From Faecalibacterium prausnitzii (GTDB lineage: Bacteria > Bacillota > Clostridia > Oscillospirales > Ruminococcaceae), in NCBI RefSeq assembly GCF_003287495.1, contig NZ_PRLE01000001.1, forward strand, positions 186,001 through 250,000: a stretch of DNA of 64,000 nt, given 5' to 3'. Position numbers and translations under genes: made by a program. Below the pieces are notes generated by a model. That model made no database searches and had not been told where the DNA came from. It saw only the letters and a program-made list of their open reading frames with translations. Of the stretch, positions 4,787 to 25,388 are shown piece by piece. Numbering within the stretch: the first letter of the stretch is position 1; every line of letters starts with the position of its first letter.

Positions 4787-6169
4787 TTAATTCACCCCCG
4801 CATTCTCCAGTGCCCGCGCGATCTCTGCATCCGAATAGCCATTCTGGTGCATGTTGTTCATGATGGCCCAGGCGCTATATCCTTTTTTGGCGTAATTTTT
4901 CGCCAGCATCGTGGCCAGATTATCCCGGTTGCTGTTCTTGGTGGTGGTCGTCGTACTCGGCAGCCCCCACTTGCTTCCCATGTTCAGGTTCGTCAAAGCG
5001 CCGGCACTTGGCGCGGTATAGGCACTCTTGCTTCCCGTTCCCTGCGGCAGCATCCCGGCCTCTTCCAAGATGCCGGCATAGATGGCCTTAGTGGGGTCAT
5101 CGTCGCTCAGCGCCTGGTACTTGCCCAGTGCTGTCAGCACCTGGCTGTTGGTCCAGCCACTCCCGCTCTTGCTGCTGCCAGACGTACTGCGGGAGCTGCC
5201 GCTACTCCGTCCAGAGCCACTGCTCTTCCCACTGGCCGAGAGGGATTTACTCAGCAGCTGCTTGTTCATGTACTCCTCAAAGGCCCGGTTTGCAACCGTG
5301 TCATAGCTGTCGATGCTGTCCTGCGGCATTCCCAGAATGTCCAGGTAGCTGTACGCGCCCGCCTGGTCTCCGCTGCCCATCAGGCTGGAGGCCGCAGCCA
5401 GTCCCGAGAGCTGATCTTTCCATGTGATCGGCGTCTGTCCGGTGTAGCTGTCCAGGATCGCCGGGTCTACTTTGTAGGCTTCCAGCACGGCCTTGGCTGC
5501 ATCGTCCGCGCCCTGCTGTTTCAGGCTCACCGCGTAGTTGATGGCCTGCGCCTGGGCCTGCTGCTGTTGGGCCGTATACCCTTTGTACCCGTCGTAGGCC
5601 GTCAGCGCCGCAGAGCCAATGTTCTTTACCCAGCCCCACAGGTTTTCCTTGTCGCTGGCGTATTCGTTCCGGGCCTGTTCGCTCTTGTTGGCCAGGTAAT
5701 TCCGCCAGCTCTGGAAATTCGCCAGGTTCGCCCCGTAGGCTGCCCGGTTCAGCCCCTCCGTGGTGGCCATCCCGCTCAGGGCATTCAGCAGGCTGTTCTG
5801 CTTGTCCTGGTATTCGGCCAGCGCCTGGCTGCGCAGGCTTGGCAGTGCGTTGTCAATGCCTGCCAGTGCCTGCCGCTGATTCTGGGCGGCCACACTGTCT
5901 GCGTAGCTGGAGCCATACCCGCCTGCCAGGTTGACCGCATTGGCCTTGGCATTGTCTGCGGCCGCCTGGGCGCTCTGGGTGGCCCACTGGCGGTACTGCT
6001 GGTAGGCGTCCGCCGCGGTGTTCCAGTCAAAGCCGCTGCCCACCTGGCCGGTCACGGCATCCATTGCCTCTTTGTTCTGGTTCACATAGTCCGCCGGGCT
6101 GTTGGCCGCCCACTGTCTCTCAGCGTCCTCTGCCGCGTTCATTCTCCGTTTGCTGCTTCCAATCGCCAT
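4787..6169 (-). CDS. Probable phage ejection (internal virion) protein, paralogue of the 200-aa neighbour
   Basis: The product is 460 aa, rich in Ala, Gln, Ser and Tyr, with a predicted helical N-terminal half. Residues about 45-160 resemble the upstream 200-aa protein: both have AAYQQY or DAYQQY, a GGYG segment, and Ala/Gln-rich helices with a Q-W pair. A Ser/Gly-rich linker (about 310-335) leads to a GWTNSQV segment and a Tyr/Asn-rich tail ending in YSDAEIARALENAG. The strong ribosome site AAGGAGGATG precedes the ATG. The stop touches the start of the polyvalent gene, so the two are co-translated or co-regulated. Its position after connector genes matches P22 gp7/gp20/gp16. No enzymatic motif is visible, and the ejection role is inferred from order and composition. 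Confidence 0.72.
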   Translation of the reverse strand: MAIGSSKRRMNAAEDAERQWAANSPADYVNQNKEAMDAVTGQVGSGFDWNTAADAYQQYRQWATQSAQAAADNAKANAVNLAGGYGSSYADSVAAQNQRQALAGIDNALPSLRSQALAEYQDKQNSLLNALSGMATTEGLNRAAYGANLANFQSWRNYLANKSEQARNEYASDKENLWGWVKNIGSAALTAYDGYKGYTAQQQQAQAQAINYAVSLKQQGADDAAKAVLEAYKVDPAILDSYTGQTPITWKDQLSGLAAASSLMGSGDQAGAYSYLDILGMPQDSIDSYDTVANRAFEEYMNKQLLSKSLSASGKSSGSGRSSGSSRSTSGSSKSGSGWTNSQVLTALGKYQALSDDDPTKAIYAGILEEAGMLPQGTGSKSAYTAPSAGALTNLNMGSKWGLPSTTTTTKNSNRDNLATMLAKNYAKKGYSAWAIMNNMHQNGYSDAEIARALENAGVN

Positions 6170-6183
6170 ATTTTACATCCTCC

Positions 6184-6786
6184 TTACAGTATCCACGGCA
6201 GCAGCATGGCTGCACCCGCCAGCACGCTGCCCCAGAATCCCCGCTTGCTCGATCGCTCCTGCTGGTAGGCATTCACAGCGCTGTTGTATTCGTTCTGCGC
6301 ATAGCTCAGGTCATTGTAGTACTTGTCCACGTTGGTCTGCCATTCCTGCCGCGCCAGCTCGTCCTGCTTCTGCAGCGTTCCCAGCTGGTTGCTCAGGTCG
6401 CTCTTCTTGGTGTTGTATTCGTTGTAGGCCTGGCTGTATAGGCTGTCCGCCACGCTTGCCAGCCCGTTCATGGTGTTCTGGTAGGCGGTCTGCCCGCTGC
6501 TGGTGCCCCAGCTGTTGCCGTAGCCGCCGCTGCGGGCCGCTGCCTGGGCCGTGGCGTCCTCGCTGGCCAGCTCCGCGCCCCGGGTGTAGCGGTTCTTGTA
6601 CTGCTGGTAGGCGGCATCTTTCGTGTAGTCGTAGCTGAAACCTTTCTGGTTCATATCATTCAGCTTGCTCTGTACCCCGTCGATCTGGTTTTTGTACTGG
6701 CTCTCATAGTCCCCCGGCTTATTTGCCTCCAGCTGATCCAGGTTGTACCGGGCCTGCTCCACCCGGCTGCTGTATCTATTCGCCAT
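6184..6786 (-). CDS. Probable phage ejection protein with C-terminal hydrophobic segment
   Basis: The product is 200 aa and mostly helical, rich in Tyr, Gln and Asn. It contains DAAYQQYKNRY, SGGYGNSWG and NTKKSDLSNQLG segments that align with the larger downstream protein, so the two are paralogues. The last 20 residues (GFWGSVLAGAAMLLPWIL) form one hydrophobic helix, which could insert in the host envelope. AAAGGAG sits six bases before the ATG. The gene is followed closely by its paralogue, a typical position for short-tailed phage internal virion proteins. The function is inferred from context only. Confidence 0.7.
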   Translation of the reverse strand: MANRYSSRVEQARYNLDQLEANKPGDYESQYKNQIDGVQSKLNDMNQKGFSYDYTKDAAYQQYKNRYTRGAELASEDATAQAAARSGGYGNSWGTSSGQTAYQNTMNGLASVADSLYSQAYNEYNTKKSDLSNQLGTLQKQDELARQEWQTNVDKYYNDLSYAQNEYNSAVNAYQQERSSKRGFWGSVLAGAAMLLPWIL

Positions 6787-6787
6787 T

Positions 6788-6988
6788 TTAATCTCCTTTC
6801 AACCCCATGGCCGTCAGCTTGTCCCGCATGGCATCCGAAAAATTACTCTCGTCCAGGTTCCGCAGCATGTACATGGTCTGATCCCGCAGCTGCATCAGGT
6901 AGTTGTTGATGGCCCGCCGGTCTTCCGGTGCCATGTTCTCGCTCAACTTCGGGAGACTGATCTCTCCCAGCCTTGTAATATCCGCCAT
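6788..6988 (-). CDS. Small phage protein, unknown function
   Basis: The product is 66 aa, starting MADITRLGEI. The chosen ATG has AAAGGA about nine bases upstream. Two ATG codons at 6994 and 6997 and a GTG further out are in frame but lie on or beyond that site. The protein is acidic and helical (DRRAINNYLMQLRDQ, DAMRDKLTAMGL). It may be a small structural or chaperone-like protein of the tail/ejection cluster. It has no recognisable domain, and its stop is one base from the next start. Confidence 0.65.
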   Translation of the reverse strand: MADITRLGEISLPKLSENMAPEDRRAINNYLMQLRDQTMYMLRNLDESNFSDAMRDKLTAMGLKGD

Positions 6989-7012
6989 ATCCATCATCCT
7001 TTCTGGCGTCAC

Positions 7013-7177
7013 ACCGCAGGGCCCACACTCCTGCGGCCGCTTATACCCAAGCGGTCTGGTTCCGTGGCCCTATCTGCCAAGGGCCATCCTCCCTCTGTCG
7101 CTTGCAGCGCCATCTCCCTCCGGCCGGAGGGAGTCTTTCCTGTTAGGGGAGCTGTCTGCGCAGCAGACTGAGAGGTT
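7013..7177 (-). repeat. Palindromic repeat element, intergenic, long form
   Basis: It fills the gap between the propeller-like tail gene and the 66-aa gene. Read on the coding strand, the tail-gene stop TAA runs straight into CCTCTCAGTC. Then come an AGCTCCCCT arm, the perfect CTCCCTCCGGCCGGAGGGAG palindrome, CCCTTGGCAG, ACCAGACCGC and GGGCCCTGCGG. The next gene's ribosome site follows. Confidence 0.92.
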
Positions 7178-9104
7178 ACGCTCCCGCCACCCGGTTGCCC
7201 CGGCTGGCCGCAAAAGTAAATGCAATGCTCCGCACCGCGATCTGCCCGGTGCCGGAAATACGCAGCCGCAGGGTGTCGTGCCGGGCAGGCACAAAGGGCA
7301 GATTCACCCGCACCCAGCGGTTCAGCACCGCCGCGTCTCCCAGCGTCTCCCAGGCCCCGCCGTCATAGCTGGCCTGTACCCGTACTACGCTGTAGGCCAG
7401 CGCGTCCACCCGCAGCGTCACCCGGCTCACATACTTGTCGTCCGGGCCCGTCAGCCCAATGTCTCCTGTCGTGGCCGTAAAGTCCACTTTTTTCTCCACC
7501 GCTGCCTGGGCCTCGTCGGTCTCCCGGTCGCTCTCCCGGTCCGGTTCCGCAGCCCACAGCGCCTCCCCGTCCCACAGGTAAAGCTGCTGCCGGGTGGAGC
7601 ACATTTCCCAGCCGGCCGTTTTCTGCCCGTCGCCGGTGTCCTCTTCATGCCACAGCTTCCGCTCCGTGTCGTACACTAGCAGCCGTGCCCGGGTCCCGGT
7701 GGCCTGCGGCACCCGGGTGTACAGGTAGTACCGCGCGTCCAGCGCTGCCCCTGCCGCATACCGTGCGTTCATCAGGCTCGTGCGGTCCAGCATAGTGGAA
7801 ACGTTCACCGGCAGGCTCCCGTCCCAGGCCATCACGCCCTCGCAGCTCAGGTAGTACAGCGTTTCGTTGATCACGCTCAGGCTCCGGCTTGCTCCCTTTG
7901 CCACGCCCCGGCACTGGGTGCTCACCACCTGATAGTCCGCCGGGCGGCTGCCATAGATTTTGTGGATCGTGTTCTCTTTAAAAAACAGCACATATCCCAT
8001 GCAGGTGGCCGCCCCGGTAAAGCCGCCCTCGCTGCCCACCGTCACCGCGTAGCTGTCGGAGGCTATGCCGTTGTAGCAGTACCAGTTGGTCGGGTCGCCC
8101 TGCTTGCAGCTGTAAATGATGTTCTCCTTGGAGTTGCAGCCCCATACCCGGTTTGCATTCTCGGTCACATATTCCAGTTCCGGCACCCGCCGCTGCGCTG
8201 CTGCGGCAGCCCCCTCAAAGGTCTTCGCCTCGCTGCCATCCAGGCTTGTCCACTTCGTCCTCTCCGCCGTGATGGCAAACGTCCCAAAGTAGGCCTTGCT
8301 CTCCTGCGCGGGCACACCTGTCACCACCACACTGTCCCCGTCCAGCTGCTCAATGTTCATCTCGCCGTTCACATTCCCGGCCAGGTACGTTTCCACCTTG
8401 TCCGGGATACCGCTCACGGTCATGGTGTCGCCTTTCTTAAACCCTGCGGCAGCCAGCCCCGGCATCGTCAGCCGTACATGATCCAGCTTGATCTCCACCC
8501 ACTTCTCCATCTTGGCGTCGTACTGTTCCAGCACGCTCACATAGGCCCAGGGGGTGGCCTCATCGTTCACTTTCAAAAACAGCAGCCCGTCTTTTGGTTC
8601 TTCCGGCTCCTTGGCCCCGTACTCTTCCACCTCGTAGGTCTTGCCGCCTGCGTCGCAGGGGCTCACCTCCACCGTCCCCTCGCCCTGGGCCCAGCTGGCT
8701 CCCAGGTCTTCCAGTTTTCCGGTCTTGGTGTCAAAGCTCTTGGCGTCCGGCCAGATGAGGATTTGGGTGCCCATCCCCACCATGATCTTTGCCGTGTCTG
8801 TCACCGCATCGGTCAGCTCAAAATAGGGGGTCCCGGCGCTGCCGTCCACGTCGTCCTGCACATAGGTCAGGGTGGTCCCGGTGCAGGTCAGCCGCCCGTT
8901 CAGGTGATACATTCCGTTGCAGTTGGCCAGTGCTCCCAGCTTCCGCCGGGGGTTCCGGGTCTGTAACGCCGGGTATCCCTGGCTGGAAAAATTCATCTCC
9001 TCGGTAAACTCCGCCTCCCCGCAGGCATAGCTCTCGTTCAGCCCGCCAAAGGCCGTCAGGATGCTCCGCCCGCTTTGTAAGCTGTACAGGCTTGGCAGGT
9101 TCAT
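7176..9104 (-). CDS. Phage tail hub / DNA-stabilisation protein, beta-propeller-like (P22 gp10-type position)
   Basis: The product is 642 aa. The ATG at 9104 follows GGAGG and lies one base past the stop of the upstream gene. A longer in-frame extension exists but overlaps that gene. The N terminus (SLQSGRSILTAFGGLNES) is followed by beta-rich repeats with periodic Trp/Tyr and motifs such as NRVWGCNSKENIIYSC, KENTIHKIYGS and RLLVYDTERKLWHEE, the look of a propeller. Similar proteins follow the portal/adaptor genes in P22-like phages and plug the portal channel. The C terminus (about 560-640) is a carbohydrate-binding-like beta domain. The phage tail assignment is good; the exact P22 gp10 equivalence is inferred. 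Confidence 0.72.
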   Translation of the reverse strand: MNLPSLYSLQSGRSILTAFGGLNESYACGEAEFTEEMNFSSQGYPALQTRNPRRKLGALANCNGMYHLNGRLTCTGTTLTYVQDDVDGSAGTPYFELTDAVTDTAKIMVGMGTQILIWPDAKSFDTKTGKLEDLGASWAQGEGTVEVSPCDAGGKTYEVEEYGAKEPEEPKDGLLFLKVNDEATPWAYVSVLEQYDAKMEKWVEIKLDHVRLTMPGLAAAGFKKGDTMTVSGIPDKVETYLAGNVNGEMNIEQLDGDSVVVTGVPAQESKAYFGTFAITAERTKWTSLDGSEAKTFEGAAAAAQRRVPELEYVTENANRVWGCNSKENIIYSCKQGDPTNWYCYNGIASDSYAVTVGSEGGFTGAATCMGYVLFFKENTIHKIYGSRPADYQVVSTQCRGVAKGASRSLSVINETLYYLSCEGVMAWDGSLPVNVSTMLDRTSLMNARYAAGAALDARYYLYTRVPQATGTRARLLVYDTERKLWHEEDTGDGQKTAGWEMCSTRQQLYLWDGEALWAAEPDRESDRETDEAQAAVEKKVDFTATTGDIGLTGPDDKYVSRVTLRVDALAYSVVRVQASYDGGAWETLGDAAVLNRWVRVNLPFVPARHDTLRLRISGTGQIAVRSIAFTFAASRGNRVAGA

Positions 9105-9105
9105 C

Positions 9106-9498
9106 TCAGTACCTCCATTTCGTTGCCATCTTGGGCAGGTAGTGCTGGCGGCACCACACCGCAAAGCCCTGCTGTGCCGTGTTCGCCAGCTGCATCTCGT
9201 TGGCATACCGCTCTGTCTCGCCCAGGGCTGCATCCATCTGGGCGCACAGGTAGTGCGGGTAATAGTCGTCATAGGGCTCCGGGGCCAGCAGCTGGGCGTC
9301 CTGCCGCAGCAGCTCCTGCTCCGGGTCGTACAGCACATCTGCCCCAACGTCGTCAAAGTCTGTGGTGTTGCTCCGGCTCACCACTGCCCGCCGCAGTGCC
9401 GCGTCACTCTGCCGCAGCCATAAAATTTTCAGCTCCCGGTCAAAGCTGTTGTTTGGCCGCAGCGCGTCCGCCGTCTCTATCGCCTTTCCTGCTGTCAT
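9106..9498 (-). CDS. Phage head-tail connector/adaptor protein (P22 gp4-like position)
   Basis: The product is 130 aa, helical and acidic (FDRELKILWLRQSDAALRR, YDDYYPHYLCAQMDAALGETERYANE). The length, the helix-rich composition and the position between the capsid region and the propeller protein fit the adaptor ring of short-tailed phages. GGGGAGG provides the ribosome site and is contributed by the repeat element just upstream. The stop is one base before the next start, so translation is probably coupled. No domain was recognised with certainty. Confidence 0.62.
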   Translation of the reverse strand: MTAGKAIETADALRPNNSFDRELKILWLRQSDAALRRAVVSRSNTTDFDDVGADVLYDPEQELLRQDAQLLAPEPYDDYYPHYLCAQMDAALGETERYANEMQLANTAQQGFAVWCRQHYLPKMATKWRY

Positions 9499-9503
9499 TT
9501 GAT

Positions 9504-9681
9504 AGCCTCCCCTCTGTAACAGGGCCCTCTCTTTTTCGTTTGCTTATATCCAGGCATTCCGGTGCCGCTGCCCGGCCTGCCAAGGGCCATCCTCCCTCTG
9601 TCGCTTGCAGCGCCATCTCCCTCCGGCCGGAGGGAGTCTTTCCTGCCAGGGGAGCTGGCACGCGCAGCGTGACTGAGAGGT
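9504..9681 (-). repeat. Palindromic repeat element, intergenic, long form
   Basis: On the coding strand it reads AACCTCTCAGTC, a CACGC/GCGTG stem, the CTCCCTCCGGCCGGAGGGAG palindrome and CCCTTGGCAGG. It ends GGGCCCTGTTACAGAGGGG, whose last bases form the Shine-Dalgarno of the connector gene. It is almost identical to the copy at 14.7-14.9 kb. Confidence 0.92.
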
Positions 9682-9699
9682 TCTTCCTTTTATGAAAAC

Positions 9700-9735
9700 A
9701 CCCCCGGCACAGCGTAGCGCCGCCGGGCCGGGGGT
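9700..9735 (-). terminator. Hairpin after the 77-aa capsid-cluster gene
   Basis: A nine-base-pair GC-rich stem (ACCCCCGGC with GCCGGGGGT) closes an 18-base loop and is followed on the minus strand by GTTTTC. It lies between the 77-aa gene stop and a repeat copy. It could be a partial terminator that lowers tail-gene transcription relative to capsid. Confidence 0.55.
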
Positions 9736-9746
9736 ATCTGGTCTTC

Positions 9747-9980
9747 TTACTGCTGGGCTGCCGCAGCCTCTGCCTCCAGCTGCGCCATTTTCTGCGCGGC
9801 CATCGTGTCCTGCATCTGGCTGTGCTCCAGCACCTCAGCCACCTCGGGCGGCACATCCACGTCCACACCGCGCTGGATCTTGTAGTTTACGCCGTTCACG
9901 CCCACAAACACATCATCCTTGTAGCGGCCGTTGTCCTTAAACAGGTGGATGCGCACCGTCTTCTTTTTTGCTTCTGCCAT
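9747..9980 (-). CDS. Small phage protein after the capsid gene, unknown function
   Basis: The product is 77 aa, starting MAEAKKKTVRIHLFKDNGRY. The core (VFVGVNGVNYKIQRGVDVDV) is a short beta-rich segment with VPPEVAEVLEHSQ after it, and the tail is Ala/Gln-rich. The ribosome site AGGAGGATATGAG is strong. It sits directly downstream of the capsid gene, where decoration or head-completion proteins are often encoded. The sequence alone does not decide its function. Confidence 0.62.
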   Translation of the reverse strand: MAEAKKKTVRIHLFKDNGRYKDDVFVGVNGVNYKIQRGVDVDVPPEVAEVLEHSQMQDTMAAQKMAQLEAEAAAAQQ

Positions 9981-9999
9981 ATCTCATATCCTCCTGACG

Positions 10000-10210
10000 T
10001 TTTACCGCAGGGCCCACGCTCCTGCGTTTTTCTTGTGCTCAAACGGTCTGGTGCCGTTGCCCGGCCTGCCAAAGGCCATCCTCCCTCTGTCGCTTGCAGC
10101 GCCATCTCCCTCCGGCCGGAGGGAGTCTTTCCTGTTAGGGGAGGTGTCGCCGCAGGCGACGGAGAGGTCCTGCCGTGCCATTGCTCTATCGTGGAAGCAG
10201 TGAGAGGTTT
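10000..10210 (-). repeat. Palindromic repeat element, intergenic, nested copy
   Basis: On the coding strand the capsid stop TGA is followed at once by AAACCTCTCAC. About 40 bases later comes a second GACCTCTCCGTCG start, then the CTCCCTCCGGCCGGAGGGAG palindrome and the GGGCCCTGCGG end. It looks like one element inserted in or joined to another. Confidence 0.9.
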
Positions 10211-11239
10211 TCAGTTTGCCGTCACGCTGCCGCTGAACTCGCCGCTCACGCTCTCAATGCGCACCATGTACTGCTCCACCAGGCGCTCAGCGGTCTGGGT
10301 TGCTTTCCAACCCACGGAGGCACGCTGGTTCAGCGGGTCATCACCATAGCCCAGCTGCTTCACGATGTGCTCAAGGCCGCCGCCCTCCAGCTCAGTGCGG
10401 CCGTAGGCGTGTGCCGCGATCACCAGGGTCGCAAACACGGCCAGGCCCGTCGGGCAGCCGTCGCCGGTCCATACCTTTGCCTCGCTGGACTCCACAAACC
10501 GGATGTTGCCGATCTTGCCGATCTCGCCCGTGTACATGGCCTCGGGGTCGGTGTACTTGTGCCAGTCCACCCACTTGGGGTCGTTCATCAGGTCATAGGC
10601 CACATAGGGATGCACAATGGCCACATAGCTGTCGCCAATGGGGTCGGCGTTCACGGCTTTCAGCATGGCTGCGGCACGCATGCACAGCTTTACGGTCAGC
10701 TGGCTGGTCTTGTCCAGGCCTGCACGGCTCACCACAGCGGTCTCCGCACCGTCCGCTGCCACCTTGGGTGCGTACAGCACATTGGTGCCGCCCACCAGAA
10801 TATCACGGGTCACGCTGTCCAGGGTGCGGCCCGCCTGGCTGGCCAGAATCTTGGTCGCCTGCAGCACGTTGTTGTCCAGCGCCGTGGTCTTCAGCACGTC
10901 GGTAATGGGCACCCAGCCGCCGTACTGGTGCACCTCTGCGGTGATGGTGCTCACTTTCAGGGCCTGGCCGTTGGGGGTCACGCCCTCGGTCAGGGGCGTG
11001 GTGGCCTTAGGCAGGCTGTCGTATTTTCGAAATTCAATGGTCTTGCCGCCATTGGCCGGGATGGGGTACGGGTCGCCAAACTGGTTGTGCACCAGTGCAG
11101 GCTCTGCCTGGTCCAGCAGCCGCTTCTCGTAGTAGGTCTTCATCTCGGCGGTCAGGCCGCTGCTGCCCGTGGTGTTCTGCAGCTGGGTGCTTGCATCCGC
11201 AAACAGCTGCAGGTCGAACATCATGTTCTTCATTTTCAT
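10211..11239 (-). CDS. Major capsid protein, N4gp56 family
   Basis: The product is 342 aa. The N terminus MKMKNMMFDLQLFADAST carries the Prp-type cleavage motif LQLFA at residues 10-14, so the mature subunit probably starts at Asp15. Downstream segments (GKTIEFRKYDSLP, LTEGVTPNGQ, QYGGWVPITD, ILASQAGRTLDSVTRDILVGGTNV) match the N4gp56 family of HK97-fold capsid proteins. The start has AGGAGG eight bases away. The protease-scaffold fusion is encoded just upstream with a 23-base gap, the usual assembly order. A repeat element follows the stop directly. Confidence 0.9.
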   Translation of the reverse strand: MKMKNMMFDLQLFADASTQLQNTTGSSGLTAEMKTYYEKRLLDQAEPALVHNQFGDPYPIPANGGKTIEFRKYDSLPKATTPLTEGVTPNGQALKVSTITAEVHQYGGWVPITDVLKTTALDNNVLQATKILASQAGRTLDSVTRDILVGGTNVLYAPKVAADGAETAVVSRAGLDKTSQLTVKLCMRAAAMLKAVNADPIGDSYVAIVHPYVAYDLMNDPKWVDWHKYTDPEAMYTGEIGKIGNIRFVESSEAKVWTGDGCPTGLAVFATLVIAAHAYGRTELEGGGLEHIVKQLGYGDDPLNQRASVGWKATQTAERLVEQYMVRIESVSGEFSGSVTAN

Positions 11240-11262
11240 TTTGTCATCCTCCTGTAAAAGAA

Positions 11263-12681
11263 TTAAAAAGTCACTACCTGGCCGCGCAGCGCTGCCCGTT
11301 CCAGCTGCTCCCGCTCTTTTCGGGTCAGAGCGTTCACGTCGGTGTGGGTCTGGGCCGCGCCGCCGGGGCGGGTGCCGTTTTCACCGGGCCGGGTGCCCCG
11401 CTGGCGGATGCGTTCGGTCACGCCGTCCTCCACCTGCTTGGCCGTCCGGCTCTCGTTCTGGGCCATGATCTGGTCAAAGTACACAGCCCGGTATGCGTTG
11501 GACATCGAGACACCCAGACGCATCAGATTTGCGATCTCCGGGTTTGCCAGCGTCTGCTCCAGGTCAAACTCCGGATACTGGGCTTTCAGCTGCTGGGCTT
11601 CCCGGTCCCACTCTGCATGGATACGGTCGATCTCCACCTGCCGCTGGGCCGCTTTCCGCTGGTCTTCCGCAAACTTTTCTGCGGCGGTCAGGCGTTTGTT
11701 CTCACTCTCCAGCTTGTCCATCTGCCGGGCGGTCGCTACGCTCACGCCCTTTTCCATGGCCAGCTTTTCAAAGTAGGCCTCGTCTTTCACCCGGCCGTTC
11801 TTCACGGCCTCGGTCAGCGCTTCCATGTCCTCCACGCCGTAGGCTTCGTGCAGCGCGTCCAGCAAGCCTCTCATCTGGGGGCTGTTTTCCAAAAGCTGTG
11901 CCGCCCGCTCCACCGCCTGCTGCATCAGCTCCTCGCTCTCGGCCTTGTATTCCCCCTGCATCAGCTCCCGGAACGCCTTTTTGTGCTCCTCCGGCGTCAT
12001 CTGGGCCTTTTCTTTGCCCTCGCTGCCGTCACCCTCACCCGCAGGGCCATCACTCTCACGCCCTGCAGAACTTTCCTCGTCCTGCTCAGAGTTGTCCGTC
12101 TTGCCAAGGGTTCCCCCTTTGGGGGAGCTGTTGCCGTCAGGCGACTGAGAGGGCAAGCCCGCTCCTCGGGAGCCCGTCCGTTTCAGCACCCCACTGCACC
12201 GGGCAAGCCGCTCCTCCGCCGGACTCATGGCCGGTTCCACAATGCCGCTGCCGCCCTCGGCTCCGGCATCTCCGGTGCCGCCAGCGCTTCCACCGTCGCC
12301 ACCGCCCTCTGCAAACAGCTGCAATTCCACCATTTTCTCCTGGCCATCCCTGCTCTTGTCCACAAAGTGCACATGATCCGGGTAGCGTTCCGCCAGCAGT
12401 GCCAGACCATTCTTGGCAAACTCCATGGCCGCCAGGTCGCTCTCGTGAATATCGCCCGTCAGCTTTACCGAGACACGGGGCCCCGTGGGCTCCCGGTAAG
12501 CGCAGCAGTCAGCCTCTTCACAGCCTGCCAACACATACACCAGTGTTTCCATCAGCATGGATGCCCCGGCACACACAATGTCCTGCCCGGCAGGGGCATA
12601 GCCTGCATGTCCGTACACTTCCAGCCGCCGCACCCGCGCCCCCGTGGGCAGGTCAAACTCCACATATTCCGCATAGATCAT
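11263..12681 (-). CDS. Prp-like cysteine protease fused to phage scaffold protein
   Basis: The product is 472 aa. Residues 1-115 match the ribosomal-processing cysteine protease family (Prp/YsxB): GHA with His25 and GQDIVCAGAS with Cys37 are the catalytic pair. At 120-124 is LQLFA, the motif that Prp cuts in ribosomal protein L27 and in some staphylococcal phage capsid and scaffold proteins. A Gly/Ala-rich linker and an in-frame repeat element (about 176-201) follow. Residues 230-472 are charged and helical (EEHKKAFRELMQGEYKAE, DKLESENKRLTAAEKF), as in scaffolds, and end in QTHTDVNALTRKEREQLERA. Its position between portal and capsid fits. Self-release at Ala124 is inferred. The ribosome site AGAGGAG precedes the ATG. 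Confidence 0.85.
   Translation of the reverse strand: MIYAEYVEFDLPTGARVRRLEVYGHAGYAPAGQDIVCAGASMLMETLVYVLAGCEEADCCAYREPTGPRVSVKLTGDIHESDLAAMEFAKNGLALLAERYPDHVHFVDKSRDGQEKMVELQLFAEGGGDGGSAGGTGDAGAEGGSGIVEPAMSPAEERLARCSGVLKRTGSRGAGLPSQSPDGNSSPKGGTLGKTDNSEQDEESSAGRESDGPAGEGDGSEGKEKAQMTPEEHKKAFRELMQGEYKAESEELMQQAVERAAQLLENSPQMRGLLDALHEAYGVEDMEALTEAVKNGRVKDEAYFEKLAMEKGVSVATARQMDKLESENKRLTAAEKFAEDQRKAAQRQVEIDRIHAEWDREAQQLKAQYPEFDLEQTLANPEIANLMRLGVSMSNAYRAVYFDQIMAQNESRTAKQVEDGVTERIRQRGTRPGENGTRPGGAAQTHTDVNALTRKEREQLERAALRGQVVTF
12079..12155 (-). repeat. Palindromic repeat element, in-frame copy inside scaffold gene
   Basis: A short-form copy (CCCTCTCAGTCGCC, AGCTCCCCCAAAGGGGGA, CCCTTGGCAAG) is read through in the linker between the protease and scaffold domains. 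The peptide TLGKTDNSEQ resembles ALGMSDNSEQ, encoded by the copy at 2926-3080. Confidence 0.85.
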
Positions 12682-12696
12682 TCGCTCTTGCTCCTC

Positions 12697-12820
12697 TCTG
12701 TCGCAGGGCCCACAGCCTCACGACATATCAAACTTCTTCCGTCCTGCTCAGAGTCTTCCGTCCTGCCAAGGGCTCCCCTGATAGGGGAGCTGGCAATGCG
12801 TAGCGTTGACTGAGAGGTTT
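12697..12820 (-). repeat. Palindromic repeat element, intergenic, short form
   Basis: On the coding strand it starts AAACCTCTCAGTC directly after the portal TGA stop. It contains AGCTCCCCTATCAGGGGAG and CCCTTGGCAGG and ends GGGCCCTGCGACAGAGAGG, which overlaps the ribosome site of the protease-scaffold gene. Confidence 0.92.
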
Positions 12821-14680
12821 TCATCGGTTCGGGTTGTTCACATTCATGGCTCTTCTGGCTGCCTGGGTGGCCATGCTGTTGTCCGCACTGCCCACTGCTC
12901 CGCCCAGGCTGTTGGTGGTCGTCTTCTCGTCGGTAGTCCCGCCGCTTCCGCCGCCTGTACTGCCTGCGGCCTGGGCAGCCGCTCCGGCCGCATCGCTCAT
13001 ATTCGTCCCGTTCTGCATGTCAATGATGGCACTCAGCTTCTGCAGCTGCTCCATGGCCTGCTGCAACTGCTGGTAGAGCGTGCCGTTCTGCTGCACCCGC
13101 TCCCGCACTTTCTCAATGCCCTCAAAGTCCATCATGTCCAGCACCGCCAGCGCTGCATCCGCGTTGGCCGGGGCAAAAAGCCCCATCTGGTAGCACTCCT
13201 TGGCCGTCTCGTTCTGGGAAAGGCGGCTGAACGTGCTCTTCTTCGCTGCACATACCGTAATGTCAAATACCGGCTCATGGGCACCTAGCTCCACGCCGCC
13301 CACCATCTGGGGCGGGGTTGGCCGCAGCATCTGGCCGGAAAACTCCACATACTCCGTCCCGCCGTTTACCCCCGTAATGCGGTAAATGCGGCCCTCGTCG
13401 TAAAACTGCCGCATCAGATCCAGGATCAGGTAGCACTCTTTCACAAAAGCCCGGTACGCGCTTTTCAGCATGTCCCGGCTCAGTTTGCTGCCCGCCTCCT
13501 GTAACGCTGCAATGGCGGAAGCCGCCGTCAGGCCGCTGGTGGTTCCGCCCTGGCTCACGTCCCGGTTGCCGCTGATTTCTTTCAGCTCCGCCACCCGGGC
13601 GTCCCGGTAGCTGATGCAGTTGCCCGAGAGCACCGGCGTCTGCAGTGGTTTAAAGCTCTCCTCGTTCACCCGGCCCACCGTGTGCACAATGTCCTTGGAA
13701 AGATCGGCCAGTTCCTCCTCGTTCACGCCTGCTGTGTCGCTCACAAGGTAGCGGCTCTTGGCTGCGATCTTGATGTTCTCATCCATGGCCGCGTTCATCT
13801 CGTCGATGCTGGTGGCCGTGTCTTTCATCACGTCAATGTACCCAAACCCCGCCGGACTGTCCTCTTCCACAAACAGCGGGTCAAACACAAAGGGGTATTT
13901 GCCGTGGTCGTAGAAGCCCCGCTCCGCGTACTCCGGGTCGTTCTCGCTGGCGTACAGCACCACGCCGTTGCAGAACTTGCAGTAATGCAGCACCGTGCGC
14001 CCCTCGCCAACGGCCTTTTTGTAGTACCAGTCCACCACCACGCTCTTGTCGCTGGTGTCAATGCTCTCATCGTGGATGTATTTGGAAGTGGTCAGGCTCC
14101 CGCCCGTGTGCCCCTCCAGCTTGGGCCACTGGGCTGCCAGCTGGTCGTTGTTCGCCAGCGCCAGGCTGAACAGGTTCGGGCTGTCCTGGATGTCGGTCAC
14201 ACCCGGTTCCCAGTACAGCATCAAAAGGTCCATGCTCTTGATGGCAATGTCCCCCACGCCGCCCCGCAGCGCCGGGTCCCAAAAGACCCCCTTGACACCG
14301 GTGCCCTGCTTGAGCTTGCGCCACCAGGTGTCACTGTAGACCTCCTCATAGTCCGCCTGTTCCAGCAAAACCGGGAAGATTTTGGAGAGCACCTTGGCTG
14401 TCTCCTCGTCGTCCCGCGCCCGGGGCAGGATGTTGGGCTCCGGGTAGTTGTCCATGGCGTCGGCGTGTTTGTTCGCAATGGAGTTGAACAGCCAGCCGGA
14501 AGCGGGCTTCGGCTTGCCCTCCATCATGTTGTTCTTGTAGCTGCGCCAGTGCTGCATCCGGAACCACTGTTCGTTCTCGATGATCCTCTGGTCCAGCGCC
14601 GCCTTTCCCACCTTGTATTTCTCCAAAAGCTGCTGCGCCTTGGCCACCTCATCGGTGCCAATGGCCTGCCGCTCCGTCAT
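12821..14680 (-). CDS. Phage portal protein, P22 type
   Basis: The product is 619 aa from the ATG with AGAGG five bases upstream. A TTG further out has no room for a ribosome site. The protein forms the dodecameric DNA channel at one capsid vertex. The length, the helical start (KAQQLLEKYKVGKAALDQRI), DPLFVEEDSPAGFGYIDVM and the Gln-rich barrel-like helix near 530-560 (NGTLYQQLQQAMEQL) fit the P22-type portal family. The last 60 residues are Gly/Thr/Asn-rich and low in complexity. The gene lies between the large terminase and the protease-scaffold, each joined by a repeat element. The assignment is from overall pattern and order. Confidence 0.85.
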   Translation of the reverse strand: MTERQAIGTDEVAKAQQLLEKYKVGKAALDQRIIENEQWFRMQHWRSYKNNMMEGKPKPASGWLFNSIANKHADAMDNYPEPNILPRARDDEETAKVLSKIFPVLLEQADYEEVYSDTWWRKLKQGTGVKGVFWDPALRGGVGDIAIKSMDLLMLYWEPGVTDIQDSPNLFSLALANNDQLAAQWPKLEGHTGGSLTTSKYIHDESIDTSDKSVVVDWYYKKAVGEGRTVLHYCKFCNGVVLYASENDPEYAERGFYDHGKYPFVFDPLFVEEDSPAGFGYIDVMKDTATSIDEMNAAMDENIKIAAKSRYLVSDTAGVNEEELADLSKDIVHTVGRVNEESFKPLQTPVLSGNCISYRDARVAELKEISGNRDVSQGGTTSGLTAASAIAALQEAGSKLSRDMLKSAYRAFVKECYLILDLMRQFYDEGRIYRITGVNGGTEYVEFSGQMLRPTPPQMVGGVELGAHEPVFDITVCAAKKSTFSRLSQNETAKECYQMGLFAPANADAALAVLDMMDFEGIEKVRERVQQNGTLYQQLQQAMEQLQKLSAIIDMQNGTNMSDAAGAAAQAAGSTGGGSGGTTDEKTTTNSLGGAVGSADNSMATQAARRAMNVNNPNR

Positions 14681-14712
14681 CAAAACCTCTTCAAATTCCA
14701 ATTTCAACCCTC

Positions 14713-14888
14713 CTGCCCTCTGTCGCAGGGCCTACGCTCTTACGACTGTTAGCACCCAAGCGGTCTGGTGCCGTGTTCCGGCCTGCCAAGGGCCATCCTC
14801 CCTCTGTCGCTTGCAGCGCCATCTCCCTCCGGCCGGAGGGAGTTTTTCCTGCCAGGGGAGCTGGCACGCGCAGCGTGACTGAGAGGTT
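14713..14888 (-). repeat. Palindromic repeat element, intergenic, long form
   Basis: The terminase stop TAA forms the first bases of the element (TAACCTCTCAGTC). Then come a CACGC/GCGTG stem, CTCCCTCCGGCCGGAGGGAG, CCCTTGGCAGG, ACCAGACCGCTTGGGT and GGCCCTGCGACAGAGGGC. An AGGAGGG lies next to the portal leader. Confidence 0.93.
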
Positions 14889-16320
14889 ACACTCTCATAA
14901 ACTTCGCCGGGCTCTGGTCCAGCGGGTCGTCCCGCAGCGGCTCCGGCTTTGCCGTCTTCCGTGGGCTGAGGGGGTTTTCCATCAGCACATAACGGCACTC
15001 GTCGTAAATGTGGTCTTCCTGGGTGGTGTCAATGTCTTCCACATTGCTCTCGCTGTATACCAGGTTCGGGATGGTCCGGATGAAATGCTTGCAGGTGTCA
15101 AACACCTGGAACATCGGCCGCCCGTCCTCCCCAAAGGCGAAACGGTAGTGGAACTGCATCTTGCCCGCAAGCCGGGTGTGGTCGCCGGGCATCCAGTGCA
15201 AAAAGTTGGGGCTTTTCTCCTGCATGTCCGCAATGCTCTCCCCGCGGCTCTCGTCAAAGATTGCCGGGTCCGCCACGCCCAGGATCACCCGTCCTTTCAG
15301 CATCGGGTCGTTCTGTTCCGCTTCCCGGATCCGCCGGGCCTGCTCCACCGGGTCAATGCGCAGGCCCTCGTTGGGTGTGCCCGTGCAGCCGTAGAGCTCC
15401 TTGATCCGGTACAGCCGCCCCTCTTCGTCGGCCGCATACCATCCAACGGAAAAGGGCTTCGAGAATCCAAAGTCGTACCCGCGCCATATCTTCCAGTGTG
15501 CCGGGATCCGGAACGGCCGGATCACATGGGTCCACCGCTGGTCGTCGTAGTGGGCCGGGTCGTTCCGCCATTCGGTGAACACCTGCCCACTAAAGCTGTC
15601 CCAGTTGCCGTATAGCAGCGCCTGCCTTTCCGCTTCCGGCAGGCTGGCCAGCGTCCCGATGTACCCCGGGTCGTTTTCCATCAGCGCCGGGTTGTCAAAT
15701 ACCGTTGACGGAATAAAAATGCGGGTCCGCCGCCGGGTGATCTCTTTTCCGTCCGGGGTCTTTACGTTCACCAGCTGCACCATCCGGGTGCCCGGTGGGG
15801 CCGGGCTGATGAACCGCGCCTTGACCCAGCCGTGGCCCACTCCGCCGGGGTTTGCCGTGGCCCGCATGTATACCCGGGTGCCCGGGCCGTTGGGGCGGTT
15901 GCGGCTCATCACATAGCTGTATTCGTCCCAGGTGAAATGGGTCAGCTCGTCCACCCCGATAAAATCAAAGGCTTTGCCCTGGTAGTTGTACTTGTCCTGT
16001 GCATGGTGCAGGCTGCCAAAATAGATTTTTGCCCCGCTGGGGAATGTCCAGCAGTGGGCGCTGCCGTTGTACCGCGCTTTCGGGAAAACAGGTTTGTAGT
16101 ACCGCATGGTCTTGTCAATGAGCTCAGAGAGTTGCGGGTAGGTCTTGCGCAGGATCAGTGCCCGGTAATGCGGGGTGTTTACCTGCCGCAGTGCCTCGAT
16201 CACCAGCGCGTCGCTCTTTCCGCCGCCCGCTGCCCCGCCGTATAACGCTTCGTCCTCGGTGCGGGACATAAAGACCAGCTGCCGCGGCTGTGGGCTCCAA
16301 ATGATCTGCCTGTTTTTCAT
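14887..16320 (-). CDS. terL: Terminase large subunit
   Basis: The product is 477 aa. It packages phage DNA into the procapsid using ATP and cuts the concatemer. The Walker A motif is GGAAGGGKSDA near the N terminus and the Walker B is FDFIGVDELTH. An ANPGG coupling-type motif follows. The nuclease domain begins with RGYDFGFSKPFSVGWY, whose Asp is the first metal ligand, with further acidic residues at GVADPAIFDE. The ATG at 16320 has AGGTGA five bases upstream; a GTG nine bases earlier is possible. It sits between terS and the portal gene. Confidence 0.95.
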   Translation of the reverse strand: MKNRQIIWSPQPRQLVFMSRTEDEALYGGAAGGGKSDALVIEALRQVNTPHYRALILRKTYPQLSELIDKTMRYYKPVFPKARYNGSAHCWTFPSGAKIYFGSLHHAQDKYNYQGKAFDFIGVDELTHFTWDEYSYVMSRNRPNGPGTRVYMRATANPGGVGHGWVKARFISPAPPGTRMVQLVNVKTPDGKEITRRRTRIFIPSTVFDNPALMENDPGYIGTLASLPEAERQALLYGNWDSFSGQVFTEWRNDPAHYDDQRWTHVIRPFRIPAHWKIWRGYDFGFSKPFSVGWYAADEEGRLYRIKELYGCTGTPNEGLRIDPVEQARRIREAEQNDPMLKGRVILGVADPAIFDESRGESIADMQEKSPNFLHWMPGDHTRLAGKMQFHYRFAFGEDGRPMFQVFDTCKHFIRTIPNLVYSESNVEDIDTTQEDHIYDECRYVLMENPLSPRKTAKPEPLRDDPLDQSPAKFMRV

Positions 16321-16332
16321 ATTGCTCACCTA

Positions 16333-16467
16333 CCCTCTGTCGCAAGGCCCGGCCTTTTTTGTCAGTTTGTAACCATGCTGTCTGGTGCTGTTGCCCGGCC
16401 TGCCAAGGGCTCCCCTATTAGGGGAGCTGGCGCGTCAGCGCCTGAGAGGTCCTGCCGGACCAGTGCT
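16333..16467 (-). repeat. Palindromic repeat element, intergenic, short form
   Basis: It begins 20 bases after the terS stop (GACCTCTCAGGCGC). It contains AGCTCCCCTAATAGGGGAG, CCCTTGGCAGGCCGG and ACCAGACAGC and ends GGGCCTTGCGACAGAGGGTAG, overlapping the ribosome site of the large terminase gene. Confidence 0.92.
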
Positions 16468-17169
16468 CTAAACTTCCACCACGATTTCCTTTTCGTCGGC
16501 ATCTTTTTCCGCCCCAATCTCCACCATCGGTGGGCTGTTTTTCTCGCCAAGGCCATTGTCCCCGGGCAGCATAGCTGCGGCCCGCTCGGCCACGGTCATC
16601 AGCACCTTGGTCATGTTGGCCGCGTCCTTGTCGGTCATGGTTCGCCCCTCGTACCGTTCCAGCTGCCGGGCCAGCAGCTTTTCCTCGTCGGGGTCCAGCT
16701 GGCGGTCATAGCTGCCCTGGCTGGCATATACCACCAGCCCCACCTCGGCTGCGTCCGCCAGGGCCTCGTCCTCGCTTTTCAGCAGGGTTCCAATGGAAAA
16801 ATCCCGGGCCCTGGCCGCCTCATCCAGCCTTGCGTGCAGCTTCTGGCTCACCTGTGCTGCCCGCCGGTTTTCTTCCACCCGGCTCTGCAGATAGCTCACC
16901 TGGGCCCGGGTGCCAAGGCTGGCCCGCAGTGCGATCTCCCGCGCCGCTGCCCGCCGCTCCTCGGCCCATGCGTCGCCCCGCTTGGCCTCTTCGGCTACCC
17001 AGGTGCGAATGGTGCTCTCCGGTACGCCGTACCGCCGCGCCACCGCACAGATGGAGTTTGTGGTCAGCATGGCCATTACCACCTCGGCCCGGAACTTGGG
17101 CGGGTACTTTCTGCCCCGCTGCCGTCCCTGCACCGTGTTTTTGCAGTACGCCCGTTTCTTCTCGGCCAT
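16468..17169 (-). CDS. terS: Terminase small subunit
   Basis: The product is 233 aa from the ATG with GGGGAGG upstream. An in-frame extension to 17316 reads through a repeat element and has no better start. The N-terminal helix-turn-helix (FRAEVVMAMLTTNSICAVARRYGVPESTIRTWVAEE) is the DNA-recognition domain typical of small terminases, which bind the packaging site and recruit TerL. The middle is charged and helical (RVEENRRAAQVSQKLHARLDEA), suited to ring formation. It is the first gene of the packaging-head cluster. A transposase-type HTH would look similar, but the place next to terL decides. Confidence 0.8.
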   Translation of the reverse strand: MAEKKRAYCKNTVQGRQRGRKYPPKFRAEVVMAMLTTNSICAVARRYGVPESTIRTWVAEEAKRGDAWAEERRAAAREIALRASLGTRAQVSYLQSRVEENRRAAQVSQKLHARLDEAARARDFSIGTLLKSEDEALADAAEVGLVVYASQGSYDRQLDPDEEKLLARQLERYEGRTMTDKDAANMTKVLMTVAERAAAMLPGDNGLGEKNSPPMVEIGAEKDADEKEIVVEV

Positions 17170-17177
17170 CGCCACAC

Positions 17178-17260
17178 CTCCCCTCTGTCGCAAGGCCCTC
17201 TCTTTTGCGTCTGCTTGCACCCATGCGGTCTGGTGCCGCAGGCGACTGAGAGGTTTTCTT
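17178..17260 (-). repeat. Palindromic repeat element, shortened intergenic copy
   Basis: AACCTCTCAGTCGCCTGCGG joins directly to GCACCAGACCGCATGGGTGC and ends GGGCCTTGCGACAGAGGGG. The central palindrome is missing. The end again supplies the GAGGGGAGG ribosome site of terS. Confidence 0.88.
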
Positions 17261-17365
17261 TCCCTCAGCCTATCACAAACCTCAGCGCAAAAATACTGCG
17301 TACTTTTTGGCAGCATAAAAAGGCCGGGTGCTCATTCATCCAGCCTCTATTCGCCGCAGCAAAAT
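17261..17365. promoter_or_regulatory. Gap before terS with A/T palindrome, possible late-gene control site
   Basis: The 105 bases between the ArpU/RinA-like gene and the packaging genes hold a palindrome at 17288-17309 (CAAAAATACT paired with AGTACTTTTTG, imperfect). The place, after a putative late regulator and before terS, suits a late promoter or a packaging site. A 24-codon ORF on the minus strand lacks a good ribosome site. No strong sigma-A promoter is obvious. Confidence 0.4.
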
Positions 17366-17653
17366 TTACAGCAGCCCACGCCGGGCAGCCGCAATGGCTA
17401 CAGTGCTCAACGCCTCCAGCTCCTTGCGGTAGTAGGTCGTCCGGCAGACGTACAACTCCGGGATCACCCGCTCCTCCGGCTGGTCTTCCAGATACCGCAG
17501 CCGCAAAAGCCTGGCACATACCGGGTCTGCCTGGTCGTAGTAGGCCAGCGTCTCCTCCACCACCTCGCGCCAGGCTTCTGGGGTCGCTTCGCAGGCCCCG
17601 CGGCCATACCGCCGCAGCGCCTTTCGTACCGTCTTCTTCTGCCCTCTGGTCAC
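17366..17653 (-). CDS. Probable phage late transcription regulator, ArpU/RinA or sigma-region-4 like
   Basis: The product is 95 aa and basic. The segment DPVCARLLRLRYLEDQPEE followed by VIPELYVCRTTYYRKELEAL has the shape of a sigma-region-4/ArpU-type helix-turn-helix: a leucine-rich helix, a short turn, then a Thr-Tyr-Tyr-Arg recognition helix. Genes of this type close the early region and activate packaging and head genes in Firmicute phages. It lies 19 bases after the Rep-like gene and about 200 bases before terS. The family name is from memory. Confidence 0.6.
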   Translation of the reverse strand: MTRGQKKTVRKALRRYGRGACEATPEAWREVVEETLAYYDQADPVCARLLRLRYLEDQPEERVIPELYVCRTTYYRKELEALSTVAIAAARRGLL

Positions 17654-17671
17654 CTGCTCACCTCCGGCTAT

Positions 17672-18553
17672 TTAACGTGCGCGTTTCTCGCGCAAAATTC
17701 TGGTATCCTGTCTGTCAGGTGCGAACTTTCGCACCATCACCACATAGCAGCGCAGATCATCGGCATCCCAGCCGTCTTTCGGCTCTGCCGGGCCCTCTGG
17801 CTCCGGCACCACACAGCGCACAAATTTCCACCCCGGGTATTTCTGCTCCCACCAATAGGCGCTGTCCCGGCACTCGGTGCAGCCCACGCGCAGCTGCTTG
17901 CGGCTCCATCGGGTATCGTTGGGCACCTGCTCCTCCGGCTGGATCAGGTTTCGGCTCTCGTACCAGCACAGGACGCTGTGCTTGCAAAAGTAGGTGATGA
18001 GATCATCCAGCCGGTTCTGCAGGTTCAGGCGGTCGGCGTTGGCCGTGCCCAGCGGCTCATAGCTTCCGTCCGGCTGCCGCAGCGCCCACTTGTCCTCCAG
18101 CATCTGCCGGAACTGGGCATTCTGCCGCATGGTCAGCCCAGCACACTCCACCAGAATGTGGTGGTGGAACCGCCCCGCCTTTCGCCCGCAGGCCGTCAGC
18201 CCCATGAACCGGATATCCGCCTTTTTCACGTCAAACGTCTTGCACGCGGCCAGCACCACCCGCCGCATCCAGTTGCGCAGATCTTTCTTGGCCTGCTCCC
18301 AGTCCTCCGGGAGATATCCGTCCTCGTAGGTCAGCGTCACGTTGAACCCCAGCACCGTAAAATTGGCATTGGCCTTTTGCACCCGGTAGCGCCGCGCGTG
18401 CTCCGCGTTCCGGCGGCGCTGGCGCTCTGTGCTGGGCCTGCCTTTCTTCCGGCGCTTGGCTGCGTGTTCCTCCGGGGTGATGGCATACAGGTCCACCTCC
18501 ATGTACTCTTTCCCGCATAGAGTCCGCTTCTCTCTGGTGTAGGTTCTTCGCAT
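17672..18553 (-). CDS. HUH-endonuclease Rep-like protein
   Basis: The product is 293 aa with a very basic N terminus. NVTLTYEDGYLPEDW at 71-85, GRFHHHILVE at 127-136 and ITYFCKH at 186-192 match the three motifs of rolling-circle Rep proteins: an LTY start, an HUH metal site with His130/His132, and a catalytic Tyr188 with a Lys three residues later. Two Cys pairs follow. Such proteins nick one strand at a hairpin and prime rolling-circle replication; similar ones occur in microviruses and plasmids. A long inverted repeat lies upstream at 18680-18745. GGAGGG precedes the ATG. A role in replication or in a side reaction such as transfer of a satellite is inferred. Confidence 0.65.
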   Translation of the reverse strand: MRRTYTREKRTLCGKEYMEVDLYAITPEEHAAKRRKKGRPSTERQRRRNAEHARRYRVQKANANFTVLGFNVTLTYEDGYLPEDWEQAKKDLRNWMRRVVLAACKTFDVKKADIRFMGLTACGRKAGRFHHHILVECAGLTMRQNAQFRQMLEDKWALRQPDGSYEPLGTANADRLNLQNRLDDLITYFCKHSVLCWYESRNLIQPEEQVPNDTRWSRKQLRVGCTECRDSAYWWEQKYPGWKFVRCVVPEPEGPAEPKDGWDADDLRCYVVMVRKFAPDRQDTRILREKRAR

Positions 18554-20529: not shown

Positions 20530-20931
20530 CTACGCGTCTTTTTGATTGGTCCAGTAGTCCGGCTCCTCCATGCGGGCATGGCTGCGGTTGATCTTGCCGT
20601 ACCGCTGGCGCCGCCGGGCTGCTATTTTTCCTCTACTCTTGGCTCCCCTGATAGGGGAGCTCCGCAAGGCGCTGGCGTCAGCCAGACCAAAGCGGTGAGA
20701 GGTTTCATCCCAGCGGCAGTACAGATACAGCCCCAAGCCAAACAACCCGCAGAGCAGCAGCCCGCTCATGGCCGGGGCTCGGGCAGCTGCCTTGCCAATG
20801 TCCAGGCCCATCCAGTGCACCAGCATCCAGTTGGCCGCAGCTTCCAGTACATCCAGCAGCCAGCACCCGGCCGCTGCCCCTGCGATCATCCCGCCCAGCA
20901 CCGCCAGCCGCATTTTTGCCCGCTTTCTCAT
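20530..20931 (-). CDS. Small phage membrane protein carrying an in-frame repeat element
   Basis: The product is 133 aa from the ATG with AAAGGAG upstream. Two hydrophobic segments (MRLAVLGGMIAGAAAGCWLL and MSGLLLCGLFGLGLYLYC) with a short loop between them suggest two membrane helices. After them, residues about 76-101 are encoded by a copy of the palindromic repeat, then a basic tail follows. The repeat keeps the frame open and lies outside the membrane part. The function is unknown; the place in the early operon allows a role in exclusion or membrane-bound replication. Confidence 0.6.
   Translation of the reverse strand: MRKRAKMRLAVLGGMIAGAAAGCWLLDVLEAAANWMLVHWMGLDIGKAAARAPAMSGLLLCGLFGLGLYLYCRWDETSHRFGLADASALRSSPIRGAKSRGKIAARRRQRYGKINRSHARMEEPDYWTNQKDA
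20628..20707 (-). repeat. Palindromic repeat element, in-frame copy inside small membrane protein gene
   Basis: On the coding strand it reads AAACCTCTCACCGC, a CTGGCTGACGCCAG stem, GAGCTCCCCTATCAGGGGAG and CCAAGAGTAG. It encodes the peptide SSPIRGAKSRGK. A nearly identical copy lies upstream of the gene. Confidence 0.85.
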
Positions 20932-20936
20932 AATTA

Positions 20937-21017
20937 CTCCTTTACTCTTGGCTCCCCTGATGGGGGAGCTATCGAACCGCGCCGCCAAAGGCGGACGGTG
21001 AGATTGAGAGGTTTTCC
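20937..21017 (-). repeat. Palindromic repeat element, intergenic, short form
   Basis: It reads AAAACCTCTCAATC, a GTCCGCCTTTGGCGG-type stem, AGCTCCCCCATCAGGGGAG and CCAAGAGTAAAGGAG on the coding strand. The last bases are the ribosome site of the small membrane protein gene. It belongs to the same sub-type as the copy inside that gene. Confidence 0.88.
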
Positions 21018-25225: not shown

Positions 25226-25263
25226 CTTAACTGTCCATTTCGCCGTCCTGTCCCTGATAAATA

Positions 25264-25306
25264 AAAATCCCCGAAAACTGGCTTCACAAACCAACTTTCA
25301 GGGATT
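25264..25306 (-). terminator. Terminator of tRNA-Thr
   Basis: AAATCCC pairs with GGGATTT, with GAAA...TTTC and CCAA/TTGG pairing inside. On the minus strand TTTTTATTT follows the stem, directly downstream of the tRNA. It may lie in phage-derived sequence if the crossover is in the tRNA. Confidence 0.65.
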
Positions 25307-25312
25307 TCTTTT

Positions 25313-25388
25313 TGGAGCTACTGATCCGATTCGAACGGACGACCTGCTCATTACGAGTGAGCTGCTCTACCGGCTGAGCCACAGTAGC
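25313..25388 (-). tRNA. tRNA-Thr(CGU), probable prophage attachment site
   Basis: The gene is 76 nt including an encoded CCA. The acceptor stem GCTACTG pairs with CAGTAGC. The anticodon stem GCTCA/TGAGC holds the loop CTCGTAA, giving anticodon CGU for ACG codons. The T-arm has GTTCGAATC. The integrase gene points at its 3' end, the classic arrangement for tRNA-integrating phages. The gene is intact, so the integrated phage end restores it. Confidence 0.95.

Follow-up and report, generated by a model that had tools for sequence, protein, structure and literature searches.

Short palindromic repeats between and within the late genes of a Faecalibacterium prophage belong to a genus-wide and probably mobile family

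According to two reviews, Rickettsia palindromic elements (RPEs) are short palindromes, considered mobile, that lie between genes as well as in frame inside them, and in-frame insertion is described there for RPEs and other miniature inverted-repeat transposable elements (MITEs) alike (PMC10969869, PMC2229807). A study of repetitive extragenic palindromes (REPs) describes palindromes moved by the transposase RAYT (PMC3733652). Bacterial MITEs such as Correia, ERIC and RUP are short, non-autonomous elements with inverted ends that occur in many copies on both strands, mostly between genes. Here we describe a family of palindromic repeats in Faecalibacterium, a genus that is among the main human gut bacteria. 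Seventeen copies were found in a prophage that fills the left part of the window, by which we mean the whole 64,000-nucleotide stretch analyzed (contig C8, positions 186001-250000, of a 2.68 Mb Faecalibacterium prausnitzii genome); the prophage spans about 38.5 kb between its attachment repeats and continues beyond the window into locus L002. We propose that these copies are probably MITE-like elements, that is, short, non-autonomous, hairpin-forming and Faecalibacterium-wide, which inserted into the prophage repeatedly.

All 17 prophage copies are on the minus strand, which is the strand of the late genes; 11 are intergenic and six lie in frame inside genes. The first-pass annotation of the window had recorded seven intergenic copies in one orientation, and these are where it placed them, with CCTCTC starts at window positions 17253, 16449, 14886, 12817, 10167, 9680 and 7175, but its list was incomplete: four further intergenic copies lie at window 21013 (copy 20949-21013) and at L002 positions 8956, 9735 and 10411. 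The head of the element, about 58 nt long, consists of AACCTCTC(A/C)GTC, a variable stem, CA(G/C)CTCCCC, a loop, GGGGAG and CCNTTGGCAG. Behind the head, in 13 of the 17 prophage copies as judged by eye, stands a tail with GGCC(C/T)TG that ends in GCGACAGAGGG or a variant, and some copies contain a nested palindromic unit with CTCCCTCCGGCCGGAGGGAG. The 12 phage copies measured are 75-173 nt long and have no transposase gene inside. We found no description of this repeat family in the open-access literature, and the elements had no match in Rfam 15 at the gathering threshold, nor did region 6500-17800 at E<=1.

Each copy can form a hairpin, in agreement with what had been predicted from the letters. 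RNA-fold z-scores were -1.9 to -3.7 for the seven intergenic copies and -0.3 to -2.0 for the five in-frame copies tested. With the register fixed, pairing was complete along the arms in 41 of 65 distinct stems, and mean arm pairing was 0.840, against 0.606 when arms were swapped between copies of equal length; a count that let every stem choose its best register (49 of 77 with complete pairing; 0.863, compared to 0.564) was dropped for that reason. When copies were aligned, the arms covaried: the 23-sequence alignment had a covariation score of 0.313, compared to 0.099 after shuffling, with none of 500 shuffles as high and slid registers nowhere near. Stops in the sense frames of the seven intergenic copies numbered 16, against 26.0 in shuffles, of which 1 in 500 was as low. 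The idea that the element is open in all sense frames was rejected; the five in-frame copies tested have 16 stops, compared to 13.9 in shuffles. A list of terminator-like sites over 6500-17800 contained no minus-strand intrinsic terminator inside the seven copies. That list is headed by the CTCCCTCCGGCCGGAGGGAG palindrome with T-rich antisense tails and holds 23 sites in the region, compared to 10.2 in shuffles; antisense (plus-strand) sites fall at this palindrome in four copies, at window 7114, 9617, 10106 and 14823.

A search of the host and its relatives showed that the repeat is not a phage invention. The exact head pattern occurred 22 times in this genome, eight of them in the prophage (reversed control, none), and in 20 of 31 genomes of the genus (reversed control pattern, 0); of 243 family genomes sampled outside the genus, 3 had it. 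With a covariance model of the head we obtained at least 135 matches in the 2.68 Mb genome, a lower bound from scoring 150 of 1,831 first-look candidates, and 15 of these are in the prophage, all on one strand; the model recovered 15 of the 17 prophage copies, with those at 3049 and 17253 under threshold. By this model the prophage is enriched about 8-fold (15 against 1.9 expected, Poisson P 2.6e-9), although the true enrichment may be lower because six of the 23 model sequences came from the prophage. Using nhmmer, we counted 15 heads in the prophage against eight in 360 kb of host stretches picked regardless of hits.

Chromosomal copies lie on both strands and often face each other. The host stretches sampled came from three genomes and held 128 heads, of which 62 are joined in 31 inward-facing pairs with inverted ends, 77-290 nt in length: 0 of 8 and 12 of 38 heads were paired in the two sets from this genome, 26 of 36 in G002 and 24 of 46 in G003. 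The G002 and G003 stretches are the first places listed rather than random ones, and one of the two sets from this genome was chosen at hits. AACC stands at both ends of 22 pairs, at one end of one pair and at neither end of eight. One A-type (CCTCTCA) and one C-type (CCTCTCC) end are combined in 29 of the 31 pairs, for example in L251, L257 and L284, so that the paired element has polarity. Host gene neighbors are found in all orientations, and 29 of 128 heads have both neighbors on their own strand. The head-plus-tail form seen in the prophage also exists in host chromosomes, for example at position 10909 of L290 (G003) and 2995 of L236 (this genome).

Compared with the described systems, the family is likened to RPEs by description, not by sequence: both comprise short palindromes that lie between genes and in frame inside them, but the present repeats belong to another genus and, here, sit in a prophage on one strand, with four copies in a single open reading frame (ORF). 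Like bacterial MITEs, they are short and non-autonomous, have inverted ends in the paired host form, and in the host occur in many copies on both strands and mostly between genes; their presence also varies between close relatives (the phage contigs L021 and L188 against the window). Unlike bacterial MITEs, they have a head whose stem is hypervariable and covaries, the phage copies are directional and have one end, and neither a parent insertion sequence nor a target duplication was found with a Y1 profile and inspection by eye only. They share with REPs and bacterial interspersed mosaic elements (BIMEs) a high copy number of palindromes, often in inverted pairs, but the units are longer and have a defined end that resembles a terminal inverted repeat, and this genome is without a RAYT/Y1 transposase.

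Close relatives of the prophage differ from it by whole copies. The closest named genomes carrying the window terminase are Faecalibacterium (records of the genome itself were possibly excluded from that search). The 4.6 kb contig L021, with a terminase large subunit (TerL) that is 98% identical in amino acids and a nucleotide identity of 94% across what aligns, lacks a copy between TerL and portal: the TerL gene ends GTG TAA CC in the window and GTG TGA GG in L021, where the stop TGA overlaps the ribosome site GAGGTG. L021 has a copy between a replication gene and an activator-like gene that the window is without, a full copy in place of the shorter 17.2 kb copy of the window, and, nested in its copy between the putative terminase small subunit (TerS) gene and TerL, a second unit. 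L188 (96% nucleotide identity; 97-100% across the portal end and the peptidase gene up to two thirds of its length) has two copies in common with the window plus an extra one preceding the head gene, which also differs in its first codons. This polymorphism, together with the family-wide spread, suggests that the elements are apparently mobile.

Gene spacing in more distant relatives gives a direction to these differences. A gap of at most 30 nt was present in 27 of 40 relatives between TerL and portal, 30 of 36 between portal and scaffold, 28 of 29 between the internal virion protein gene and the next gene, 5 of 6 between TerS and TerL, and 22 of 33 between the head protein gene and the 77-aa gene. 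This survey drew on 43 listed loci, among which a strain or contig could appear more than once, and dropped loci without both genes, with a gap above 900 nt or below -120 nt, or with a cut upstream alignment. At five of the seven junctions the genes of most relatives thus abut or overlap, which points to gain rather than loss of the copies there. Among related phages that carry the element, the stop codon is its starting point in L026 and L022 (portal and scaffold genes) and in L107 and L108 (TerL). The distance from the stop is 8-32 nt for L103 (TerL, scaffold and head genes), for L188 (scaffold) and for L022 (internal virion protein), and a paired element in L103 contains the end of the portal frame. 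The head had no match at the threshold used in 26 of 32 Faecalibacterium-like phage loci, a count that misses subfamilies because L107 and L108, which are among the 26, carry related sequence. No single inverted copy was found in related phages; an apparent one in L103 is really a paired, symmetric element, as in L022.

The first-pass annotation had the stop codons of the tail, terminase, capsid and portal genes run directly into the repeat and its other end supply the next ribosome site, and each statement held at some junctions. The stop-to-CCTCTC gap is 0 nt after the internal virion protein gene (7176-9356, phrog_511; copy 7012-7177) and after TerL (14887-16329, phrog_979 and phrog_2; copy 14716-14888), where the stop TAA shares its AA with the element. 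It is 3 nt after the portal gene (12821-14707, phrog_156; TGA AAA CCTCTC), whose copy at 12694-12819, common to L188, precedes the peptidase gene. The major head gene (10211-11239, phrog_1357) ends 3 nt from a partial head at 10207 (TGA AAA CCTCTCACTGC) and 43 nt from the main head of the copy at 10003-10169. Four of the seven stops are therefore within 3 nt of an element; the remaining gaps are 18 nt for the copy between the TerS-position gene and TerL (16333-16451), 66 nt for that between the 77-aa and 130-aa genes (9510-9682), and 112 nt for that before the TerS-position gene (17181-17255), which has part of its hairpin missing relative to L021. As read by eye, the GACAGAGGG end lies against the ribosome site or makes it up in five of seven copies, for the genes at 17.2 kb (end CGACAGAGGGGAGG), 16.3, 14.7, 12.7 and 9.5 kb (end GAGGGGAGG); at 10.0 and 7.0 kb the ribosome site sits beyond the element. 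The string GGGCCCTGCGACAGAGGG that had been quoted for this end has no exact occurrence in the genome, where there are variants only. At L002 8956, the upstream gene runs into the element and is terminated by a TGA within its stem.

The six in-frame copies lie at window 12154, 4530, 3049, 2541 and 20704 and at L002 15516, and use three different element reading frames among them. Four lie within a 3,620-aa phage ORF on the minus strand (N-terminal part at 1-4786, continuing into L002 to 13924); in the window these are at 4401-4530, 2880-3049 (in a different reading frame) and 2430-2541. The L002 copy splits a stretch that is uninterrupted in four distant homologues (20-26% identity); no homologue in this comparison covered the three giant-ORF copies in the window. 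The copy at 12036-12154 lies in the peptidase gene (11263-12681, scaffold by position; phrog_4478, a peptidase, and phrog_13908, no function named) and is also present in L022 but not in L023, L024, L105 or L083, L105 being the same as L024. A copy of a second subfamily (CCTCTCACCGCTTTGG...) occupies 20637-20704 in a small protein gene (20530-20931). With six of the 17 prophage copies lying in frame within genes, stops and ribosome sites are not what the family is bound to; it is, besides, a repeat of the host genus that occurs on both chromosome strands.

A putative trans-acting factor would move the MITE-like elements, and insertions that break translation would be purged. Between genes, survivors would be those whose 5' AACC turns a preceding T into TAA, keeping termination, and whose 3' GACAGAGGGnAGG, which is Shine-Dalgarno-like, keeps initiation in tightly packed genes; inside genes, they would be copies that stay in an open frame. 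The GACAGAGGGnAGG end is at ribosome-site distance from the next start in five of the seven copies. Such putative filtering, through the AACC-made stop and the GACAGAGGGnAGG ribosome site, would explain why one orientation survives between genes. The likely effect would be to separate genes that were formerly translationally coupled and to add a stable hairpin to the late mRNA. A further step, which we offer only tentatively and consider doubtful, is that a mobile palindrome with a stop-making end and a ribosome-site end inserts between overlapping phage genes, breaks neither, and becomes the translational punctuation of an operon whose genes are then separately initiated.

The same features could be read as signs of phage function, with the elements acting as hairpin spacers in the late mRNA that would set RNA stability, cleavage or the translation of single cistrons. 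The shared sense orientation in the prophage, the fold scores of the intergenic copies, the covarying arms and the coincidence of ends with stops (4/7) and ribosome sites (5/7) fit this idea, but we consider it unlikely: the junctions are not conserved among relatives, close sisters are without single copies, copies also lie inside genes, and the hairpin is kept in host copies in all gene orientations, as is equally expected if it serves mobility. The earlier suggestion of exchangeable spacers thus survives insofar as the copies are interchangeable inserts that sisters gain or lose singly, but it is not a full account. Recombination between phages, with the elements as points of module exchange that spread within the exchanged modules, is improbable to a similar degree. 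The TerS-position gene at 16468-17172, which lies between two copies, is only 88% identical to L021 while its neighbors are 97-98% identical, the head gene start and the element both differ from L188, and comparing filled with empty sites gives no clean insertion. Sliding identity between the window and L021 or L188, however, has no sharp steps at elements, and the divergence of 16468-17172 is concentrated in its 3' half, so that module exchange, also raised at first pass, finds no clear support. That the repeats are REP-like and moved by a RAYT (Y1) transposase is very improbable, palindromic, intergenic, high-copy, hairpin-forming and inversely paired as they are: PF01797 had no match in this genome, although it matched in 5 of 14 control genomes, and 11 of the 31 genus genomes have it, whereas G003 (59 pattern copies), G013 (56) and G028 (47) have none. 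We therefore rejected RAYT as the mover in this genome, since Y1 is absent and does not track the repeats in the genus.

Several observations weigh against repeated insertion of MITE-like elements. The mover was not found: Y1/RAYT (PF01797) is absent from this genome, other transposase families not having been searched, and inspection of one 40 kb stretch of G002 by eye showed no autonomous element between two heads. No target duplication was evident by eye in 34 listed host pairs, with no clean empty site at hand, and filled and empty sites in L021 and the window differ by more than a clean insertion, so that recombination could have moved some copies. A gap of at most 30 nt occurs in 1 of 32 relatives for the 9.7 kb junction and in none of 6 for the one at 17.2 kb, and because of this loose spacing a coupled ancestor is not shown there. 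L021 and L188 both come from one metagenome sample, and L188 switches at about position 2765 from its closely related head gene to the giant gene, which may be a chimeric assembly or a large deletion. In this genome 12 of 46 sampled host heads are paired, compared to 0 of 15 in the prophage, and the phage tail GACAGAGGG would at best count as a degenerate second end. Inside called genes lie 11 of 128 host heads, seven sense and four antisense. Host heads abut stop codons in 15 of 55 cases (14 of 53 after removing duplicates, against 6.9, 9.2 or 14.9 expected), and we claim no host stop preference because its significance shifts with the assumed element length.

The remaining features place the copies in the prophage. 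Its late genes, on the minus strand, comprise the TerS-position gene, TerL, portal, peptidase, major head, two small genes and the internal virion protein gene. The first of these may be TerS; the label comes from position because its PHROG matches are weak and name other families (transposase, DNA-binding, HNH). The L002 part of the 3,620-aa ORF, which runs off the window, matches PHROG 22978 and 28077 (function not named); no relatives were found among viral contigs queried with its first 1,000 aa, and beyond it lie tail-fibre-like genes and a holin. Plus-strand ORFs at 1343-3508 and 3791-6268 were set aside as antisense to the giant ORF and its neighbor. A tyrosine integrase (23991-25124, plus strand, profile match) precedes the right attachment repeat (25263-25316), which adjoins a tRNA-Thr (25313-25388). 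This sequence of at least 54 nt is repeated directly at L002:6730 (C8:172730). Elsewhere in the window, an IMPDH RNA motif at 58943-59054 scored above the Rfam cut-off.

If the copies are indeed mobile elements of the genus, they would be an overlooked source of change in Faecalibacterium and its phage, including changes in frame within structural and giant genes. The single-copy differences between sister phages make the effect of one element on the late operon directly testable.

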